A stretch of DNA of 64,000 bases from NCBI RefSeq assembly GCF_030268685.1, contig NZ_BSRQ01000023.1, forward strand, positions 85,622 through 149,621. The letters are read 5' to 3'. The notes below the pieces were generated by a model. It was not told the DNA's origin. It was given only the letters and a program-made list of their open reading frames with translations, and did not search any database. The DNA comes from Microtetraspora sp. NBRC 13810 (GTDB lineage Bacteria > Actinomycetota > Actinomycetes > Streptosporangiales > Streptosporangiaceae). This document shows positions 1-9,639 of this stretch, piece after piece; position 1 is the stretch's first letter, and every line of letters starts with the position of its first letter. The position numbers were made by a program, and so were the translations under genes.

Positions 1-778
1 TGGTCTCCACCTTGACCTTGGGCAGGCCGCGCAACAGGCGGTCGTCGGCGGCGGCCGGCGGCAGCCGGGTGAGCGCGGGCGCGTGCCAGGCGCCGCAGAC
101 CACCGCGATCCGCTCGAACCCGTCCTTGATCGCGCGGCGCAGCGTCCTGCGCATGTAAGCCTCGCGGCGCGCCTCACGCTCGCCGGGCACGTACCCCTCG
201 CGGATCGCGGCCATCGCCTCCCCGACCGCCTCGAACGGCGCGGCGCCCCTGCGGTGCTCCACGACGTCCTCCCACCAGCGCTCGGGATCGTCGTATCCGG
301 CGGCCCCGGCGAGCACCCCCACCGGATCGGCGGGCGGCTCATCCCCCCGCCCCTCACCCCCTCGCTTCCCTTCCTCCTGCGCCCCGTCCCCCCGTGCCCC
401 GTCCCCGGGCGCCCCTTCCCCTCGTGCCCCGTCCCGTGGTGGCTCCTCGGCGAGGGTGAGAGCGGCGGGCAGGTCGCAGAAGCGCACCGGCACCCCCTCG
501 GCCACCGCGTGACGGATCGCCTGCCACTCCGGGGAGAACTCCGCGAACGGCCAGAACGCCGACCTCGACGGCTCACCCGGCACATGCGCCAGCAGGGCGA
601 CCGGCGGCTCCATGCCGGCGTCCCCGGCGAGCGCGACCAGCCCGTCGGCCTCCGGCGGACCCTCGACGAGCACGACGTCGGGCCGCAGCCGCGCCAGCTC
701 CTCACGCACCGCCCGCGCCGAACCCGGCCCGTGGTGCCGCACCCCCAGCACCGTGACGGCGGGGGTCTCAGTCGGCAT
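1..778 (-). CDS. DUF5682 family protein, TraB/ChaN/EreA-like (C-terminus outside window)
   Basis: The first 259 codons are visible and the gene runs off the left edge. The N-terminus (VLGVRHHGPGSAR, residues 10-22, then PDVVLVEG at 33-40) matches the opening strand-helix-strand of TraB/ChaN/EreA-like proteins, and residues near 225-245 (RIAVVCGAWHAPAL) look like the later conserved His strand. A Gly/Arg/Glu low-complexity insert sits at about 109-140. The ATG lies 11 bp inside the end of the upstream ATPase gene, so the two are translationally coupled. The family is known as a companion of MoxR ATPases and SWIM proteins; its reaction is not established. A VWA-domain gene would be expected next, outside the window. 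Confidence 0.75.
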   Translation of the reverse strand, partial: MPTETPAVTVLGVRHHGPGSARAVREELARLRPDVVLVEGPPEADGLVALAGDAGMEPPVALLAHVPGEPSRSAFWPFAEFSPEWQAIRHAVAEGVPVRFCDLPAALTLAEEPPRDGARGEGAPGDGARGDGAQEEGKRGGEGRGDEPPADPVGVLAGAAGYDDPERWWEDVVEHRRGAAPFEAVGEAMAAIREGYVPGEREARREAYMRRTLRRAIKDGFERIAVVCGAWHAPALTRLPPAAADDRLLRGLPKVKVET

Positions 779-1835
779 CGCGGCAGGCCCGGTAGAAGTC
801 ACGCCAGCCGTCACGCTCGCGGACGACGGTTTCGAGGTACTCCCGCCAGATGACCCGGTCCGACAGCGGATCCTGGATCACCGCGCCCTGGATGCCGGCC
901 GCGACGTCGGCGGGACGCAGCACGCCGTCGCCGAAGTGGGCGGCGAGCGCGATGCCGCCGGTCAGGACGGAGATCGCCTCGGCGGTGGACAGCGTGCCGC
1001 TGGGTGACTTGACCTTGGTGCGCCCGTCCTCGGTGACACCGGAGCGCAGCTCGCGGAAGACCGTGACCACCCGCCTGATCTCCTCCAGGCCGGTCACGGC
1101 GTCGGGCAGGTCGAGCGCCCGGCCGAGCTGCCCCACCCGCCGGGACACGATGTCGACCTCCTCCTCGGCGCTGGCCGGCACCGGGAGCACCACCGTGTTG
1201 AACCGCCGGCGCAGGGCGCTGGACAGCTCGTTGACGCCGCGGTCCCGGTCGTTGGCGGTGGCGATGACGTTGAAGCCGCGCTGCGCCTGGACCTCGTCGT
1301 TCAGCTCCGGGATCGGCAGCGTCTTCTCCGACAGCACGGTGATCAGCGCGTCCTGCACGTCGGAGGGCATGCGGGTCAGCTCCTCGACCCGGGCGACGCG
1401 GCCCTCGGCCATCGCGCGCATCACCGGGCTCGGCGTGAGCGCCGCGCGGGAGGGCCCCTCGGCGAGCAGCCGCGCGTAGTTCCAGCCGTACCGGATCGCC
1501 TCCTCGGCGGTGCCCGCGGTGCCCTGCACGAGCAGCGTCGAGTCGCCGCTCACCGCCGCCGCGAGGTGCTCCGACAGCCAGGTCTTCGCCGTGCCCGGCA
1601 CGCCGAGGAGCAGCAGGGCGCGGTCGGTGGCGAGGGTGGCCACCGCCACCTCGACGATCCTGCGCGGCCCGATGTACTTCGGGGTGACCTGGTCGCCGTC
1701 GCCCATGACGTACTCGGTGACCGCCCACGGGGACAGCCGCCAGCCGGGGGGCCTCGGCCGGTCGTCGGCCTTGGCGAGGATCGCCAGCTCCTCCGCGTAC
1801 TGGTCTTCCGCGTGAGGTCGCAGAACGCTGGTCAC
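768..1835 (-). CDS. MoxR-like AAA ATPase
   Basis: A 355-residue AAA ATPase. Walker A is GVPGTAKTW at residues 78-86; further on are an atypical Walker B region (VARVEELTRM), sensor-1-like VIATANDRDRG and an arginine-finger region ALRRRFN. This is the MoxR/dynein-like type with a C-terminal lid. MoxR proteins usually remodel or insert cofactors into partner complexes together with VWA-domain proteins. The start is GTG at 1835, overlapping the DUF5691 stop as GTGA; a longer upstream extension in the same frame has no sensible sequence. Second to third gene in the cassette, with overlaps on both sides. The target protein is unknown. Confidence 0.88.
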   Translation of the reverse strand: MTSVLRPHAEDQYAEELAILAKADDRPRPPGWRLSPWAVTEYVMGDGDQVTPKYIGPRRIVEVAVATLATDRALLLLGVPGTAKTWLSEHLAAAVSGDSTLLVQGTAGTAEEAIRYGWNYARLLAEGPSRAALTPSPVMRAMAEGRVARVEELTRMPSDVQDALITVLSEKTLPIPELNDEVQAQRGFNVIATANDRDRGVNELSSALRRRFNTVVLPVPASAEEEVDIVSRRVGQLGRALDLPDAVTGLEEIRRVVTVFRELRSGVTEDGRTKVKSPSGTLSTAEAISVLTGGIALAAHFGDGVLRPADVAAGIQGAVIQDPLSDRVIWREYLETVVRERDGWRDFYRACRDAD

Positions 1836-3307
1836 GAGAGCTCCTTCATCATGTCGTTGCGGAATCGCAGGACGGCGGCGACCGACTGGACGTAAGGCTC
1901 GGGCGACAGGCGCTCGGCCAGGTCGTGCAGCGCGGGATCGGCCCGCTCGCCGACCATGCGGCTCAGCTCGGCGATGTTCCACGGCTGGGACCGGGCGACG
2001 TCGAGGATCTTGGTCAGCACGGCCAGGGTCAGGTTGCGGCCCCACGGGGCCGCCACGCCGCCGAGCACCATGATGAGCTGGCTGTCCACCTGGTGACGCC
2101 GGACGAAGCCGGCCGCCGTCGCCTCCTGCTCGGCGGGCGGCAGGGCGGCCAGGAGCTCGGCCACCGGTTCCACGGCGAACAGCGCACGCGCCCAGCCGGG
2201 GTCGCGTTGCAGCACGGCGGCCCTGACCCAGCCCGCCCTGACCTCGCGCGCCCAGTCGACGATCTCCATGCCGACCACCTCGCCCGCGTCGGCGCCGAAC
2301 ACCTCGCTCCACAGCGACAACGGCGTCCGCGCCACGACCTGCTGCAGCCACCAGCTCTTCTCGCCGGTGCCCCGCGGCGCGTTCCCCCGCACGCCGTCCC
2401 GCTGCATGGCCCCGTCACACGCCTCCGGCGGCGCCACCAGGATGCGCCCCGGCCCCCTGCCGTCCGCCTCCGTGGCGCCTCGCGGGGGCTCGGGACGGAG
2501 GACGCGGCGGCCGCGCTCGCGCATCCGGCCGGCGAGCCGGGAGCCGGGCAGCCTGGTCAGCAGGTCGGCGGCGCACTGGCGCACCTCGCGCCGCCGGTCG
2601 TCCAGGGCCGCCTCGAGGAACGGCTCGTCCCGCGCGGCCAGGCCGTCGCCGAACGTCTCCAGGAAGGCCGCGCGGTCCTCGGGCGTCTCCTCCTCCCAGG
2701 TGCCTGCCAGCAACTCCCGCGCGCCGTCCGGGTCGCTCGCGCGCAGCGCGGCCAGCAGCGCCCGCCGGTCCCCCGCGGTGCCGAGCTGCCACGTGTCGCC
2801 GCCTCCGGTGGGCTCTTCGAGCAGGTAGGCCCACCCGGGGTGGCCCAGCGCGGCCAGCCAGCGTCCGCGCTGCCCGGCCAGCACGCCCGCGTGCGAGCGG
2901 ATCGACCGGTCCTTCGCCCCGTGGTCGAGCAGCTCGGGCAGCAGGTGCGCGGGCAGCCGCAGGCCGCGCGCGGCGGCGAGCGCGAGCCACTCGGGCAGCA
3001 GCCGGGGCAGCTCCCCGCCGAGGATGCGGGTCAGCCGCGCCGCCGCCGCGGGCGACACCACCGGCCGCTCCTCGGCGGGCGCCGCGGGGAGCGGCTCGCC
3101 CCTGCTGAGCCGCTGCCCCGCGCGCACCCGCACGACCTGCACCGCCGCCCGCTCCAGCAGCTCCCGCGCCGGATCGGCCCGCGCCCGTCCGTGCGGCGAC
3201 TCCGGCACGGCGCGGCGCTCCGTGCCCACCAGGGCCGTGGAGACCAGGTCCTGCCACACGTCGGCGTCCTGCCACACGTCGGCGCCCTCCCCCGTCGTCC
3301 CGCTCAC
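1832..3307 (-). CDS. DUF5691 family protein
   Basis: A 491-residue protein, mostly helical and rich in Leu/Ala/Arg, with blocks such as LVSTALVGTERRAVP near residue 20 and LPRLLPEWLALAA near 100. The middle looks like HEAT-type alpha-helical repeats (ALDDRRREVRQCAADLLTRLP). No catalytic motif is visible, so a scaffold role is plausible, but that is inference. It starts with GTG overlapping the SWIM gene stop (GTGA) and ends overlapping the ATPase start, so all four cassette proteins are probably made together. The family is known only from this gene neighbourhood and has no assigned function that I recall. Confidence 0.8.
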   Translation of the reverse strand: MSGTTGEGADVWQDADVWQDLVSTALVGTERRAVPESPHGRARADPARELLERAAVQVVRVRAGQRLSRGEPLPAAPAEERPVVSPAAAARLTRILGGELPRLLPEWLALAAARGLRLPAHLLPELLDHGAKDRSIRSHAGVLAGQRGRWLAALGHPGWAYLLEEPTGGGDTWQLGTAGDRRALLAALRASDPDGARELLAGTWEEETPEDRAAFLETFGDGLAARDEPFLEAALDDRRREVRQCAADLLTRLPGSRLAGRMRERGRRVLRPEPPRGATEADGRGPGRILVAPPEACDGAMQRDGVRGNAPRGTGEKSWWLQQVVARTPLSLWSEVFGADAGEVVGMEIVDWAREVRAGWVRAAVLQRDPGWARALFAVEPVAELLAALPPAEQEATAAGFVRRHQVDSQLIMVLGGVAAPWGRNLTLAVLTKILDVARSQPWNIAELSRMVGERADPALHDLAERLSPEPYVQSVAAVLRFRNDMMKELS

Positions 3308-4746
3308 AGCACGATCACCTCGCCGTCCTCACCCCAGGCGGTGAGCGGCACCAGCCCCTTGGGGGTCCACTCGGCGGCCACCGTCAGCGGCCTGCCGCCG
3401 GAGGCGGACACCAGCCGCCACGGCGCCCCGATCGCCGGGTCGATCCCCCACCCCGCCACCTCGGCCGGGCCTTCCGGGCCGGCGGCGGGGCAGCCGAGCA
3501 GCCAGCCGTCGCCCCTGACCGGCACGACACCGCCCAGCACCACCGGCCAGGAGTCCAGCCACGGGTCGCCGGCCAGGGCGGCGGCGACCTCGGACAGGGC
3601 GGCGTCGAGGGTGGCGGCGGGCGGCGGGAGACCGGCGCGCAGGCCGTGGCGGCCGGCGACGAGGGCGCGCAGCGGGCACGCGCCGGGGTAGAAGGCCAGG
3701 TCGGCGCGCACGGCGGTGCCGGTGACCAGCGAGGCGTCCAGGGGCTGGCCCGGCGGGGCGAAGGACAGCACCAGGGCGGCCCTGCCGGTCGCCGCTCCGC
3801 GCAGCCAGACGCGGCGGCTGACCAGCCGGTCCTGCATGTCGTCGCGGGCGCCGAGCACGTGCCACTCGTCCTGGACCCGCTCGCCCGCGAGCACCTCCTC
3901 GCGGGTGACGGGGAAGCCGATCCGCGACCTGATCGTCGCGCCCATGTGCCCGGACGGCGCGCGCCGGTGCCCCACGGCCAGCAGGTGCAGCAGCGCGTAC
4001 TGCTCAAGCACCCGGCTCGGCCACTCCTCCTGCGGCAGCAGCGAGGCCAGCCGGGAGACCCTGCCGGCGACGCCGGGGGCCTGGGCGTCGATCAGCCGCT
4101 TGGCCAGGCCGTCCCACTGGTCGAAGCCGGTGGTGCGGGTGGCCGCGATGCCCTGCCTGATCTGGTCGGCGAGCCATCGCTCCAGCTCCGACAGCCCGGC
4201 GGACACCCGCCGCTCCCGCTGCGCGGCCCGCCGCGCCGCCTCCCCGCTCCGCTGCGCCTCCCGCCCGGTCTCTCCTCGGGGCGGCCCGTCGTCCTGTCCC
4301 GCGGCCCCGCCGGGCTCCGCACCGGGCTCGCCGCCCTCCGCCGCAGGACCGGCCGCAGGGCCGGCCGCCGAGCCGGACGACGAGCCGGCGGGCGTGCCCG
4401 CCCGGCGGGCGGCGGCGCGGTCGCGGCGGGCGGCCAGCCACTCCTCGACCCATCCGGGCGGCGCCGCGGCCCGGACGCCCCCGGCCGACCACAGCAGGAG
4501 CAGGCCGAGGACGTGTTTGCAGGGGAACTTGCGGCTCGGGCAGCCGCACCGGTAGGCGGGGGCGGACAGGTCGGCGCACGCCTGGTAGGGGGTCGCGCCG
4601 CTGCCCTTGCACGCGCCCCACACCACGCCGCCGGACGCCCCCGCCTCCGGCCACCTCCCCGGCCCGGCGACCCCCTGGGCCGCCTTGCCCGAGGCGGCGT
4701 CGGGCGCGAGCGCCAGCACCTGGTCCCGGCTCCACCGTTCGATCAC
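3304..4746 (-). CDS. SWIM zinc-finger protein
   Basis: A 480-residue protein with a SWIM zinc finger near the N-terminus: Cys67, Cys69, Cys76 and His78 in CGCPSRKFPCKH, the CxCx(n)CxH pattern. SWIM fingers bind DNA or protein. An Ala/Gly/Glu-rich linker of low complexity spans about 105-165 and is followed by a long conserved-looking helical and beta region with no enzyme motif that I recognise. It is the first gene of the cassette and starts with ATG at 4746, 142 bp from the divergent cupin gene, so its promoter must lie between 4747 and 4888. Likely role: substrate- or nucleic-acid-recognition part of the MoxR system (inference). Confidence 0.85.
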   Translation of the reverse strand: MIERWSRDQVLALAPDAASGKAAQGVAGPGRWPEAGASGGVVWGACKGSGATPYQACADLSAPAYRCGCPSRKFPCKHVLGLLLLWSAGGVRAAAPPGWVEEWLAARRDRAAARRAGTPAGSSSGSAAGPAAGPAAEGGEPGAEPGGAAGQDDGPPRGETGREAQRSGEAARRAAQRERRVSAGLSELERWLADQIRQGIAATRTTGFDQWDGLAKRLIDAQAPGVAGRVSRLASLLPQEEWPSRVLEQYALLHLLAVGHRRAPSGHMGATIRSRIGFPVTREEVLAGERVQDEWHVLGARDDMQDRLVSRRVWLRGAATGRAALVLSFAPPGQPLDASLVTGTAVRADLAFYPGACPLRALVAGRHGLRAGLPPPAATLDAALSEVAAALAGDPWLDSWPVVLGGVVPVRGDGWLLGCPAAGPEGPAEVAGWGIDPAIGAPWRLVSASGGRPLTVAAEWTPKGLVPLTAWGEDGEVIVL

Positions 4747-4888
4747 GCGGCGACACTACCGACGGCCTCCGACAAAAACGCCCAGCCCAAACGATCTTGC
4801 CGCCACCACCGCCCATCAGGCCACATATCCGGACCGACCCCCCGAAGCACCACCCCTGACCGGGGATCGAGGTACTAGCATCGGAACA

Positions 4889-5476
4889 GTGCTGGTCAAG
4901 ATCTATCCCGACGGGACGCCGGTGAGCGTCGCCGATGACGATGAGGCGTTGCGGGTCGCGGGCGAGAGGTTCGGCGACGGCGGGCCCGTGGTGGCGGTGG
5001 ACGGCGAGCGGGTGCGGTTCCTGCGCCGCGACGTGCGCGGGACGTTCGTCTCGGTGGCGGAGCGGCCGGCCGTGGCCGAGGCGCTCGACCTGCTGCCGCA
5101 TCCCGAGGGCGGCTGGTTCCGCGAGACGTGGCGGAGCGGGGTGACCTTCGAGCCGCCCGGGTACGGCGGCCCGCGGTCCTCGGCGACCGCGATCCACTTC
5201 CTCCTCATGCCGGGCGAGGAGTCGGTCTGGCACGTGGTCCGCTCGGACGAGCTGTGGTTCTGGCACCGGGGCGGGCCGCTGACGCTGCTGATCGGCGACC
5301 CCGACGGCGAGTACGAGACCGTGGTCCTCGGCCCGGACGTCGAGCGCGGCGAGGTGCCCCAGGCGCTGGTCCCGGCCGGCACCTGGCAGGCCGCCCGGCC
5401 GGCCGGTCCGCGCGAGGCGCTGGTGAGCTGCGTCGTGTCCCCCGGCTTCGACTTCGCCGACTTCCAGGCCCGCTGA
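4889..5476 (+). CDS. Cupin-fold protein (DUF985 / cupin_5 type)
   Basis: 195 residues. The C-terminal two thirds contain the DUF985 cupin pattern: LLPHPEGGWFRETWRS, then AIHFLLMPGEESVWHVVRSDELWFWHRG with the His/Glu positions typical of cupin motif 1, and VPAGTWQAARP as motif 2. The first 70 residues are a separate short segment found in some actinobacterial homologues. GTG at 4889 was chosen because the open frame upstream is low-quality and the codons from here read as a protein. Cupins of this group bind a small polar ligand or metal; the substrate is unknown. It is divergent from the SWIM cassette and followed 112 bp later by the aldehyde dehydrogenase. Confidence 0.75.
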   Translation: MLVKIYPDGTPVSVADDDEALRVAGERFGDGGPVVAVDGERVRFLRRDVRGTFVSVAERPAVAEALDLLPHPEGGWFRETWRSGVTFEPPGYGGPRSSATAIHFLLMPGEESVWHVVRSDELWFWHRGGPLTLLIGDPDGEYETVVLGPDVERGEVPQALVPAGTWQAARPAGPREALVSCVVSPGFDFADFQAR

Positions 5477-7124: not shown

Positions 7125-7133
7125 CCGGGTGCC

Positions 7134-7165
7134 GTCGCCTCGCCGCCGGACGGCGGCGAGGCGAC
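7134..7165 (+). terminator. Intrinsic terminator after the aldehyde dehydrogenase gene
   Basis: A perfect 14-bp GC-rich stem (7134-7147 with 7152-7165) closes a GGAC loop 9 bp after the stop codon. There is no U-tract, as is usual in actinobacteria. Confidence 0.8.
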
Positions 7166-7218
7166 AAGACGCGCATGGAGCGGCACAATCAGTCCCCGTA
7201 ACCCAGGGGGAAGGCGGG

Positions 7219-9639
7219 ATGAGGATCGTGACGACCTCGATTCATCAGCGCATCGCCGAGGAGCTCGGCGTTCGCGAGCGGCAGGTACAGGCGGCCGTGG
7301 ACCTGCTCGACGGCGGTGCGACGGTGCCGTTCATCGCGCGCTACCGGAAGGAGGCGACCGGGACCCTCGACGACGCGCAGCTGCGCACGCTGGAAGAGCG
7401 GCTGCGCTATCTGCGCGAGATGGAGGAGCGGCGCGCGGCCATCCTGGAGTCGATCCGCTCCCAGGGCAAACTCGACGAGGCCCTCGAAGCGCAGATCATG
7501 GCGGCCGACTCCAAGGCCAGGCTGGAGGACATCTACCTCCCCTTCAAGCCGAAGCGGCGCACCAAGGCGCAGATCGCCAGGGAGGCCGGGCTGGAGCCGC
7601 TGGCCGACAAGCTGCTCGGCGACCCGGCGCTCGACCCGGCCCGGACGGCGGCGTCCTTCGTCGGCGAGGGCGTGCCCGACGAGGCGGCCGCCCTGGAAGG
7701 CGCGCGGGCGATCCTCGTCGAGCGGTTCGCCGAGGACGCCGACCTCATCGGCTCTCTGCGCGAGCGGGTCTGGTCGCGCGGGCGGCTCGTGTCCGCGGTG
7801 CGCGAGGGCAAGGAGGAGGAGGGCGCGAAGTTCTCCGACTACTTCTCCTTCGCGGAGCCGTTCACGAAGCTGCCCTCGCACCGGGTGCTCGCGATGTTCC
7901 GCGGCGAGAAGGAGGAGGTGCTGGCCCTCACCCTGGAGCCGGACGAGGACGGCGAGGGCGACTACGAGCAGCGCATCGCCCACCACTTCTCGATCGCCGA
8001 CCGGGGCAGGCCGGCCGACCGGTGGCTGCTGGACACGGTGCGCTGGGCGTGGCGGACGCGGGTGTTCGTGCACCTGGGCATCGACGTGCGGATGCGGCTG
8101 TGGCAGGCGGCGGAGGAGGAGGCGGTGCGGGTGTTCGCCGCCAACCTGCGCGACCTGCTGCTCGCCGCGCCCGCCGGCACCCGCGCGACGCTCGGCCTGG
8201 ACCCGGGCTTCCGCACCGGCGTGAAGGTCGCCGTGGTCGACGCCACCGGCAAGGTCGTCGAGACGGCCACGATCTACCCGCACGTCCCGCAGCAGCGCTG
8301 GGACGAGTCGATCGCGGTGCTCGCCCGGCTGTGCGCCGCGCACGGCGTCGAACTGGTCGCGATCGGCAACGGCACGGCGTCCCGGGAGACCGACAAGCTC
8401 GCCGCCGACCTGATCAAGCGGCATCCCGAGCTGAAGCTCACCAAGATCGTGGTGTCCGAGGCGGGCGCCTCCGTCTACTCCGCCTCGGCCTTCGCCAGCC
8501 AGGAGCTGCCCGGCCTGGACGTGTCGCTGCGCGGCGCGGTGTCCATCGCCCGCCGGCTCCAGGACCCGCTGGCCGAGCTGGTCAAGATCGACCCCAAGTC
8601 CATCGGGGTCGGGCAGTACCAGCACGACCTGGCCGAGACGAAGCTGTCGCGCTCGCTGGACGCGGTGGTGGAGGACTGCGTCAACGCCGTCGGCGTGGAC
8701 GTGAACACCGCCTCGGCCCCGCTGCTCACCCGGGTGTCGGGGATCGGCTCCGGCCTGGCCGAGAACATCGTGCTGCACCGCGACGCCAACGGGCCGTTCC
8801 GCTCCCGCAAGGCGCTCAAGGACGTGGCCCGGCTCGGCCCGAAGGCGTTCGAGCAGTGCGCGGGCTTCCTGCGCATCCCCGGCGGCGACGACCCGCTCGA
8901 CGCCTCCAGCGTGCACCCCGAGGCGTACCCAGTGGTACGGCGGATGCTCGCCCGGACCGGCGGCGACGTGAAGACGCTGATCGGCAACGACCAGATGCTG
9001 CGGACCCTGCGGCCCGAGGAGTTCGTCGACGACACCTTCGGCCTGCCGACCGTCACCGACATCATCAAGGAGCTGGAGAAGCCGGGACGCGACCCGCGGC
9101 CCGCGTTCAAGACCGCCGCCTTCGCCGACGGCGTCGAGAAGATCTCCGACCTCACCCCGGGCATGGTCCTGGAGGGTGTGGTCACCAACGTGGCGGCCTT
9201 CGGGGCGTTCGTCGACGTGGGCGTCCACCAGGACGGCCTGGTGCACGTCTCGGCCATGTCGCGGAACTTCGTCAAGGACCCGCGCGACGTGGTGAAGCCC
9301 GGCGACATCGTCCGGGTCAAGGTGCTGGAGGTGGACATCCCGCGCAAGCGCATCTCGCTGACCCTGCGGCTGGACGACGAGACGGCCAGGACCGGCGGAC
9401 GACGCGACTCCCAGGACGGCGCCGGCGACCGCGGCGGTGACAGGGGCGGCGACAGGGGCGGCGACCGGGGCGGCGACCGGGGCGGCGACCGGCGGGGCGG
9501 CGGCGGCGGACGCGGCAAGGGCAACGGCGGCGGGGGCGGCGGGAACCGGCAGCGGCAGGGCCGTCCCGAGCCCGCAGGGGGCGCGCTGGCCGAGGCGCTG
9601 CGCAAGGCCGGGCTGGACAAGAACCTCGGCGGGCGCTGA
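7219..9639 (+). CDS. tex: Transcription accessory protein Tex, S1 RNA-binding
   Basis: 806 residues with full Tex architecture: N-terminal helical domain ([16 protein letters not shown], then [15 protein letters not shown]), a YqgF/RNase H-like domain from about 324 ([17 protein letters not shown]), helix-hairpin-helix motifs near 505-560 and an S1 RNA-binding domain at about 647-718. Tex is a conserved nucleic-acid-binding protein affecting transcription fidelity or RNA turnover. The tail (about 736-790) is unusual: six GDRGG-type repeats and a Gly/Arg/Asn-rich stretch resembling eukaryotic RGG boxes. ATG at 7219 has GGGGGAAGG upstream; an earlier in-frame start at 7129 overlaps the terminator and is rejected. 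Confidence 0.95.

Follow-up and report, generated by a model that had tools for sequence, protein, structure and literature searches.

The left edge of a 64,000-nucleotide stretch of the Microtetraspora sp. NBRC 13810 genome (hereafter the window, G000:C23:85622-149621 of a host genome of 9.0 Mb in 114 contigs) carries part of a five-gene cassette, SWIM-DUF5691-MoxR-DUF5682-VWA. We give about even odds to a reading in which its products form an ATP-driven MoxR-VWA remodelling machine that acts on DUF5682, a predicted hydrolase of the TIKI/TraB fold, with SWIM and DUF5691 as the likely substrate-binding arm. A further step is offered only tentatively: the machine would be an AAA+-gated hydrolase of a new class, perhaps a protease, with a YehL-type ring and a VWA clamp driving DUF5682 and SWIM-solenoid adaptors feeding it. 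The cassette genes that lie in the window are as follows.

4746-3304, minus strand: SWIM zinc-finger protein gene, 480 amino acids, first gene of the cassette (open reading frame (ORF) and Pfam)
3307-1832, minus strand: DUF5691 gene, 491 amino acids (ORF and Pfam), overlapping the SWIM gene by 4 bp (GTGA)
1835-768, minus strand: MoxR AAA+ ATPase gene of the YehL-like clade, 355 amino acids, overlapping the DUF5691 gene by 4 bp (GTGA)
778 (ATG) to 1, minus strand: N-terminal 259 codons of the DUF5682 gene, which runs off the left edge (Pfam)

A sequence-only reading of the window had described these four genes as a stop-to-start overlapping set and had suggested looking for a VWA gene to the left. 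The overlaps (4, 4 and 11 bp) were confirmed on the minus strand, the last one lying at the MoxR stop, where DUF5682 also has an alternative in-frame GTG start at 814. The contig runs on past the left edge, so the wider region C23:70000-89000 (L003, identical to the window where they overlap, with window position 1 at L003 15623) could be used to complete the set. The whole DUF5682 ORF (L003:14121-16436) encodes a protein of 759 amino acids (P0121), and it overlaps by 8 bp a VWA_CoxE gene (L003:12944-14128) that lies left of position 1; the cassette therefore has five genes, not four. Pfam searches bore out the family names: SWIM (PF04434, E 1.3e-4, 21.9 bits against a cut-off of 19.6), DUF5691 (PF18944, E 1.9e-139, full profile covered), AAA_5 on MoxR (PF07728, E 7.2e-39), DUF5682 (PF18934, E 2.9e-86 over the portion inside the window and E 2.5e-283 over 727/727 positions for the whole protein) and VWA_CoxE (PF05762, E 3e-56). 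Besides these, the five proteins matched only VWA_2 and, more weakly on MoxR, AAA_3 and bpMoxR. An NCBIfam scan returned only matches far below the cut-offs, and a scan of 4600-5100 for promoters and terminators, using a sigma-70 pattern that fits a 74% GC genome poorly, found none.

We assessed conservation in two samples. First, a pattern scan of GTDB genomes gave at least 593 stretches, and the best 80 of at least 517 relatives among them are our named loci; because only these best-ranked 80 of at least 517 relatives were retained, the sample favours the window type (type A, below). All five genes were present in 68 of the 80 named loci, always in one of two arrangements: on a single strand (46 loci), or with DUF5691-SWIM divergent from MoxR-DUF5682-VWA (22 loci, from Streptomyces and Streptantibioticus). 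Complete cassettes also occur beyond the actinobacteria, in Thiofilum (L129), Leptolyngbya-type cyanobacteria (L130, L149), a Chloroflexaceae metagenome-assembled genome (MAG; L141) and an Isosphaeraceae MAG (L148). A five-gene neighbourhood of this kind is far beyond chance. Among the 12 incomplete named loci, eight are cut by contig ends. A 4-bp overlap was possible in 25/56 SWIM/DUF5691 pairs (10 more being fused), 46/58 DUF5691/MoxR pairs, 44/86 MoxR/DUF5682 pairs and 54/82 DUF5682/VWA pairs, in a count that picks the start codon closest to the upstream stop and is thus biased toward overlaps. The earlier suggestion that coupling would hold the products in fixed proportions did not generalize: we rejected fixed stoichiometry by translational coupling as a general feature because the two halves of the cassette are divergent in 22/68 complete named loci.

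Second, a profile search of 296 genomes of the host's phylum placed DUF5691 above cut-off in 18 and DUF5682 in 21, with DUF5682 also present in all of the 18. Regions were retrieved for all 34 DUF5682 rows of this survey minus one fragment (G259:C302), and the loci fall into four types. Type A comprises the host and 18 loci, of which 17 hold all five genes and the remaining one is a 4.4 kb contig. Type B (6 loci) has MoxR and a single ORF that joins DUF5682 and VWA (6/6). The E. coli type has 2 loci, one with matches to YehI, YehL, YehM, YehP and YehQ (L080) and one with matches to the first four (L074). Type C (5 loci, including a second copy on host contig C12) has an unknown protein, VWA, MoxR and a DUF5682-like protein. 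The C12 cassette (L004:4499-11188) is outside the window and has relatives in L081-L084; its DUF5682-like protein (928 amino acids) has no Pfam hmmscan match, yet keeps the HH, E and GxxH residues discussed below. The actinobacterial L080 (G128:C1:3580000-3599999) comes from a genome that carries a type A cassette elsewhere.

Fusions occur on both sides of the cassette. In addition to the DUF5682-VWA ORF of type B, SWIM and DUF5691 form one ORF in 8/80 named loci (L098, L105, L118, L121, L123, L134, L148 and L154) and also in L064 and L072. The fusions divide the set into an adaptor pair (SWIM-DUF5691) and an enzyme-clamp pair (DUF5682-VWA), and natural fusions of this sort are a classic sign of physical partnership. 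Together with the conserved set they agree with the earlier view of genes suited to an NTP-driven complex, the complex itself being something that we infer. As DUF5682 is the sole protein other than MoxR and VWA common to the four types, and is fused to VWA in type B, it would be the conserved client in the YehL family. Compact operons often show short overlaps, and the genes could in principle be unrelated members of an ordinary operon that share no machine. This explanation is hardly credible here: five genes are conserved across phyla, are kept after the operon has been split and are joined by two kinds of fusion, and the conserved neighbourhood refutes it in substance.

The trio has a counterpart in E. 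coli K-12, where yehL (annotated as a MoxR family ATPase), yehM (uncharacterized), yehP (VWA) and yehQ (SWIM) lie downstream of yehI (DUF4132). YehM matches the DUF5682 profile (E 2.4e-98), and the window cassette aligns to YehL (MoxR, 41% identity over 355 amino acids, E 3e-82), YehM (DUF5682, 28% identity, E 1e-33) and YehP (VWA, 37% identity, E 3e-74). The gene order MoxR-DUF5682-VWA is common to both, and the yehM/yehP overlap is 8 bp, equal to that of the DUF5682 and VWA genes here. The two sets differ in that the window has DUF5691, which gave no alignment to YehQ, and that a search of the host genome for DUF4132 found none. In E. coli strain DGF-298 a 29-kb deletion takes in yehI to yehQ (PMC10652928), so that strain can do without the set. 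The literature matches listed included no functional study of the yehL/M/P/Q operon, and neither DUF5682 nor DUF5691 occurred in the open literature searched.

A MoxR tree (midpoint root, long outgroup branches) unites the proteins of types A, B, C and E in a single clade (support 98/97, 33 rows) that excludes RavA and five other host AAA+ proteins. YehL groups with types B and E, and type A falls outside a well-supported B+C+E group. On these relationships we assign the window MoxR to the YehL subfamily of MoxR AAA+ ATPases. E. coli has one other MoxR ATPase, RavA (PMC3893208), which like the window MoxR has a VWA partner (ViaA). The window MoxR, however, has no significant alignment to RavA (best stretch round Walker A, E 0.07), and its Walker B differs as listed here.

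1581..1604, minus strand: Walker A motif GVPGTAKT, with the pattern in 108/109 MoxR sequences (the miss is a truncated row)
1368..1403, minus strand: Walker B region GRVARVEELTRM, with Glu-Glu replacing Asp-Glu

Glu-Glu was present in 108/108 MoxR sequences with data, in contrast to the normal Asp-Glu of E. coli RavA (LDE). The five host AAA+ outgroup proteins carry no weight on this point, because the pattern used to select them demanded Asp-Glu. The sensor 1 pattern is kept in 108/109 sequences, and the two Arg of the RRF motif (Arg finger) in 107/108 and 108/108. The metal ion-dependent adhesion site (MIDAS) of the VWA protein is intact (DxSxS 108/108, Asp 107/108, Thr 103/108). The cassette proteins thus contain the motif set of MoxR-VWA co-chaperone pairs (Walker A, sensor 1, Arg finger and MIDAS).

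CbbQ-CbbO, CoxD-CoxE and magnesium chelatase are likewise AAA+ rings with a VWA co-chaperone that remodels a client; those clients are respiratory, Rubisco or chelatase proteins, in place of which the cassette encodes its own conserved DUF5682 and SWIM-DUF5691. In NorQ-NorD, too, such a pair remodels a client, the MoxR ring and VWA partner being thought to twist it and insert the metal (PMC13036017). The mechanism that we infer, from complex formation and the hexamer through catalysis, substrate and direction of action to the role of the arm, would run as follows. MoxR would assemble as an AAA+ hexamer, as expected from its family, and the VWA protein, with its intact MIDAS, would dock on this ring, in the manner of NorD on NorQ, and bind DUF5682. 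A pull on DUF5682 powered by ATP hydrolysis would next load, open or switch its putative active site (His-His, Glu and GxxH). The substrate or signal would be delivered by SWIM-DUF5691, in which a zinc finger sits on a predicted alpha-solenoid, and DUF5682 would hydrolyse its substrate only when ATP and the adaptor arm permit. The folds of the cassette proteins used in this scheme are those predicted by modelling.

The case for an enzyme comes from an alignment of 113 DUF5682 sequences of all types, in which the following residues stand out.

731..736, minus strand: invariant His-His of GVRHH (residues 15-16 of P0121), 113/113 sequences
662..664, minus strand: invariant Glu of VLVEGPP (residue 39 of P0121), 113/113 sequences
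83..94, minus strand: GAWH, a GxxH motif (residues 229-232 of P0121), Gly and His in 113/113

Also invariant are the S and E of FSPE and the R-E..M residues. The Gly of the first GxxH is kept in 107/113 sequences, and the His, the Glu and the second GxxH in 113/113. The invariant residues group in the N-terminal domain in an active-site-like manner, which suggests an enzyme; hence our proposal of a hydrolase that is gated by ATP and has a SWIM-solenoid arm. The whole-protein model (predicted local distance difference test (pLDDT) score 87.9, predicted template modelling (pTM) score 0.83) has an alpha/beta N-terminal domain and is otherwise mostly helical and solenoid-like. The low-complexity Gly/Ala/Arg/Asp stretch of the host protein (residues about 117-146, window 340-430, minus strand) has pLDDT <50 and is short or missing in several relatives.

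The sequence-only reading had called this protein TraB/ChaN/EreA-like. What stands of that proposal is the presence of the His ... Glu ... GxxH residues of TIKI/TraB/EreA/ChaN proteins, matched by motif and not by superposition, on an alpha/beta N-terminal domain, together with one fold match: in fold alone, the N-terminal domain model is similar to one chain from a complex that includes a TraB-family subunit. In EreC, a protein of the TIKI/TraB/EreA/ChaN fold, the active-site residues are H50, E78 and H289 (PMC7979712). What does not stand is support at the sequence level: kinship of DUF5682 with the TraB or EreA families was unsupported by Pfam, hhalign and PDB searches. DUF5682 differs from these families in that no significant sequence similarity to them was found and in adding a long helical, solenoid-like part. 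The Pfam listing, taken as far as E 10, a range in which the filters remove most weak matches, contained only chance families besides DUF5682, and no TraB, EreA or ChaN. ChaN, EreA and other TIKI structures were absent among the 50 structure-search matches listed, an absence that excludes nothing. A TraB-family gene was found in 1/119 genomes of the phylum and an EreA-like family in 15/119; the host genome has four matches to the Erythro_esteras family (EreA-like fold), on contigs C2, C3 and C20.

Several points weigh against the remodelling machine with a DUF5682 hydrolase. The fold match is to chain E of 7w5z, which is only putatively the TraB-family subunit. In terms of the 2His/2Glu set outlined for TIKI proteins in PMC6254334, the first Glu was not seen adjoining the first His of DUF5682, and the second catalytic Glu is not evident. 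An hhalign comparison of DUF5682 with a narrow TraB/YbaP profile (8 sequences) gave a probability of 0.6%, which is not significant. PDB sequence searches with DUF5682 and TraB queries returned nothing useful, and Foldseek returned nothing at E <= 0.001 for the whole DUF5682 and fusion models, with the non-significant rows being mostly helical-repeat proteins. A Walker B of Glu-Glu could point to hydrolysis that is slow or regulated. Divergent transcription in the 22 complete named loci argues against strict co-production, and four named loci lack genes despite having room for them: L112 (SWIM), L117 and L142 (VWA), and L160 (MoxR, SWIM and DUF5691). The window SWIM protein does not align to YehQ (E 0.49), so the SWIM arm is not common to E. 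coli, although a YehQ-like partner is an E. coli trait that is not known to be a defining one for the YehL subfamily. Finally, no catalytic activity or complex has been reported for any cassette member in the literature examined, and a B12-binding neighbour of the cassette, described below, could suit a cofactor role instead.

The proposed adaptor arm combines a zinc finger with a predicted scaffold. The SWIM protein satisfies the zinc finger signature CxCx(n)CxH, as follows.

4495..4551, minus strand: SWIM zinc-binding motif C-x-C-x6-C-x-H, CGCPSRKFPCKH (residues 66-84)

The CxC...CxH pattern is present in 84/91 SWIM sequences from type A loci (the window's own included), and in 2 of the 7 misses (L064, L134) the matched stretch starts late in the profile. 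DUF5691 is predicted to be a HEAT/ARM-like alpha-solenoid, and the model of a natural SWIM-DUF5691 fusion (L098) is confident (pLDDT 93.1, pTM 0.80) and matches solenoid proteins, which supports the earlier description of DUF5691 as a helical scaffold. Rows for Rpn1, Integrator and importin in the fold search were taken as "alpha-solenoid" only. In one actinobacterial family (f30: L066, L067, L068, L069 and L071) DUF5691 is much shorter (177-210 amino acids matched where measured; L069 by profile only), so the solenoid seems only partly kept there.

A helical, solenoid-like DUF5682 would also fit a chaperone that inserts a metal or cofactor and thereby matures an enzyme encoded elsewhere, with DUF5682 and DUF5691-SWIM as client-binding scaffolds and DUF5682 not a working hydrolase. 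We regard this as possible, at something over one chance in four. The VWA protein is of the CoxE type, MoxR/VWA pairs are known in metal insertion (PMC13036017, PMC4240915), and the E. coli yeh operon adjoins molR/yehI (PMC10652928), MolR being discussed in PMC8533742. The flanks bear on this in both directions. We surveyed 591 flanking ORFs from 93 loci with a codon-usage gene caller, naming families from one representative for each of ten clusters and leaving smaller clusters unnamed. The eight largest clusters (18 to 33 loci) belong almost entirely to the Streptomyces group. The representatives scanned from this group are two succinyl-CoA ligase subunits (on the VWA side of the cassette), an M23 peptidase, an alpha/beta hydrolase, a sigma-70 region 4 protein, DUF6350 and a small B12-binding protein. 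The B12-binding gene (one representative scanned) adjoins DUF5691 in 31 loci, mostly Streptomyces with one Catenulispora (L136), for example at L147:3797-4222. Against an insertion role, no single flanking family among the ten clusters named spans most genera, the multi-genus ones being a major facilitator superfamily (MFS) transporter (15 loci), an ATP-binding cassette (ABC) transporter (8) and an aldehyde dehydrogenase (8), and the invariant residues of DUF5682 cluster like an active site.

The same survey bears on nucleic-acid quality control or repair, in which SWIM would bind DNA or RNA and MoxR-VWA-DUF5682 would remove or cleave stuck proteins. SWIM fingers are often nucleic-acid or protein binders. 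Furthermore, in Deinococcus, depleting the DNA-damage repressor DdrO raises the expression of a DUF4132 gene (yehI family; PMC8533742). We consider this role improbable, at slightly under one chance in ten, considering that there was no repair protein among the ten flank-cluster representatives scanned and that the DUF4132 search, which covered the host genome, found none.

The sequence-only reading had also likened the cassette to MoxR-VWA conflict systems, and an immunity function of the VMAP/iSTAND kind shares the MoxR-VWA core pair accompanied by further conserved proteins. The spread over actinobacteria, cyanobacteria, planctomycetes and chloroflexi is like the distribution that PMC7159879 gives for VMAP systems, vWA-MoxR-VMAP sets of a related kind have been reported close to CRISPR loci (PMC10910872), and MoxR has a weak match to the bpMoxR profile (23.9 bits, below the cut-off of 27). 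As described in PMC7159879, ternary MoxR-vWA conflict systems have a variable C-terminal effector on the vWA protein and VMAP, iSTAND, FtsH or a beta-propeller as third component. None of these four was seen in the Pfam matches of the cassette, the VWA protein has no such tail (<=18 amino acids beyond the family envelope in 93/93 loci with a whole VWA gene), and gene content is constant across loci. A search of PADLOC-DB 2.0.0 with the five cassette proteins yielded 0 families at E <= 0.001, and there was no relative among the 24 stretches that a pattern scan picked out of IMG/VR viral contigs. The cassette is present in 8/8 sampled genomes of one genus with shared flanks. The main text of PMC7159879 nowhere names SWIM, Yeh, TraB, DUF5682 or DUF5691. 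With no support from PADLOC, the viral-contig scan, the effector-tail count or the literature, the likeness was set aside, and we put a conflict system at roughly one chance in eight. Weak PADLOC matches to TerY (3.3e-4) and mad8 (1.5e-5) fall on the second cassette on C12, not on that of the window. A jumbo-phage set also joins a MoxR-vWA pair to a predicted hydrolase by fusion (PMC7824862); it differs in being phage-borne and in having a metallopeptidase domain at the vWA N-terminus, and it is proposed to act in virion assembly.

Neither the MoxR-VWA principle nor the YehL subfamily is new. The literature searched contained no mention of the SWIM-DUF5691 module, of the five-gene unit or of DUF5682 as a hydrolase. 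The MoxR-DUF5682-VWA trio spans Actinomycetota, Cyanobacteria, Chloroflexi, Planctomycetota and Gammaproteobacteria, including E. coli K-12, and this single core recurs in four accessory settings. Since the fusions and the invariant residues point to a catalytic subunit, yehLMPQ gains a concrete hypothesis that can be tested in standard laboratory strains. Should DUF5682 prove to be a hydrolase gated by ATP, an enzyme-driving branch would join the chaperone and metal-insertion roles of MoxR-VWA machines.

Two other features of the window lie to the right of the cassette. A DUF985 cupin gene (PF06172, E 1.5e-51; 4607-5476, plus strand) is divergent from the SWIM gene, and its ORF start as listed overlaps SWIM, the real start probably being further right. 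Beyond it, a long ORF on the plus strand (7129-9639), which we take to be Tex-like, ends in a run of GDRGG repeats (9430-9520).

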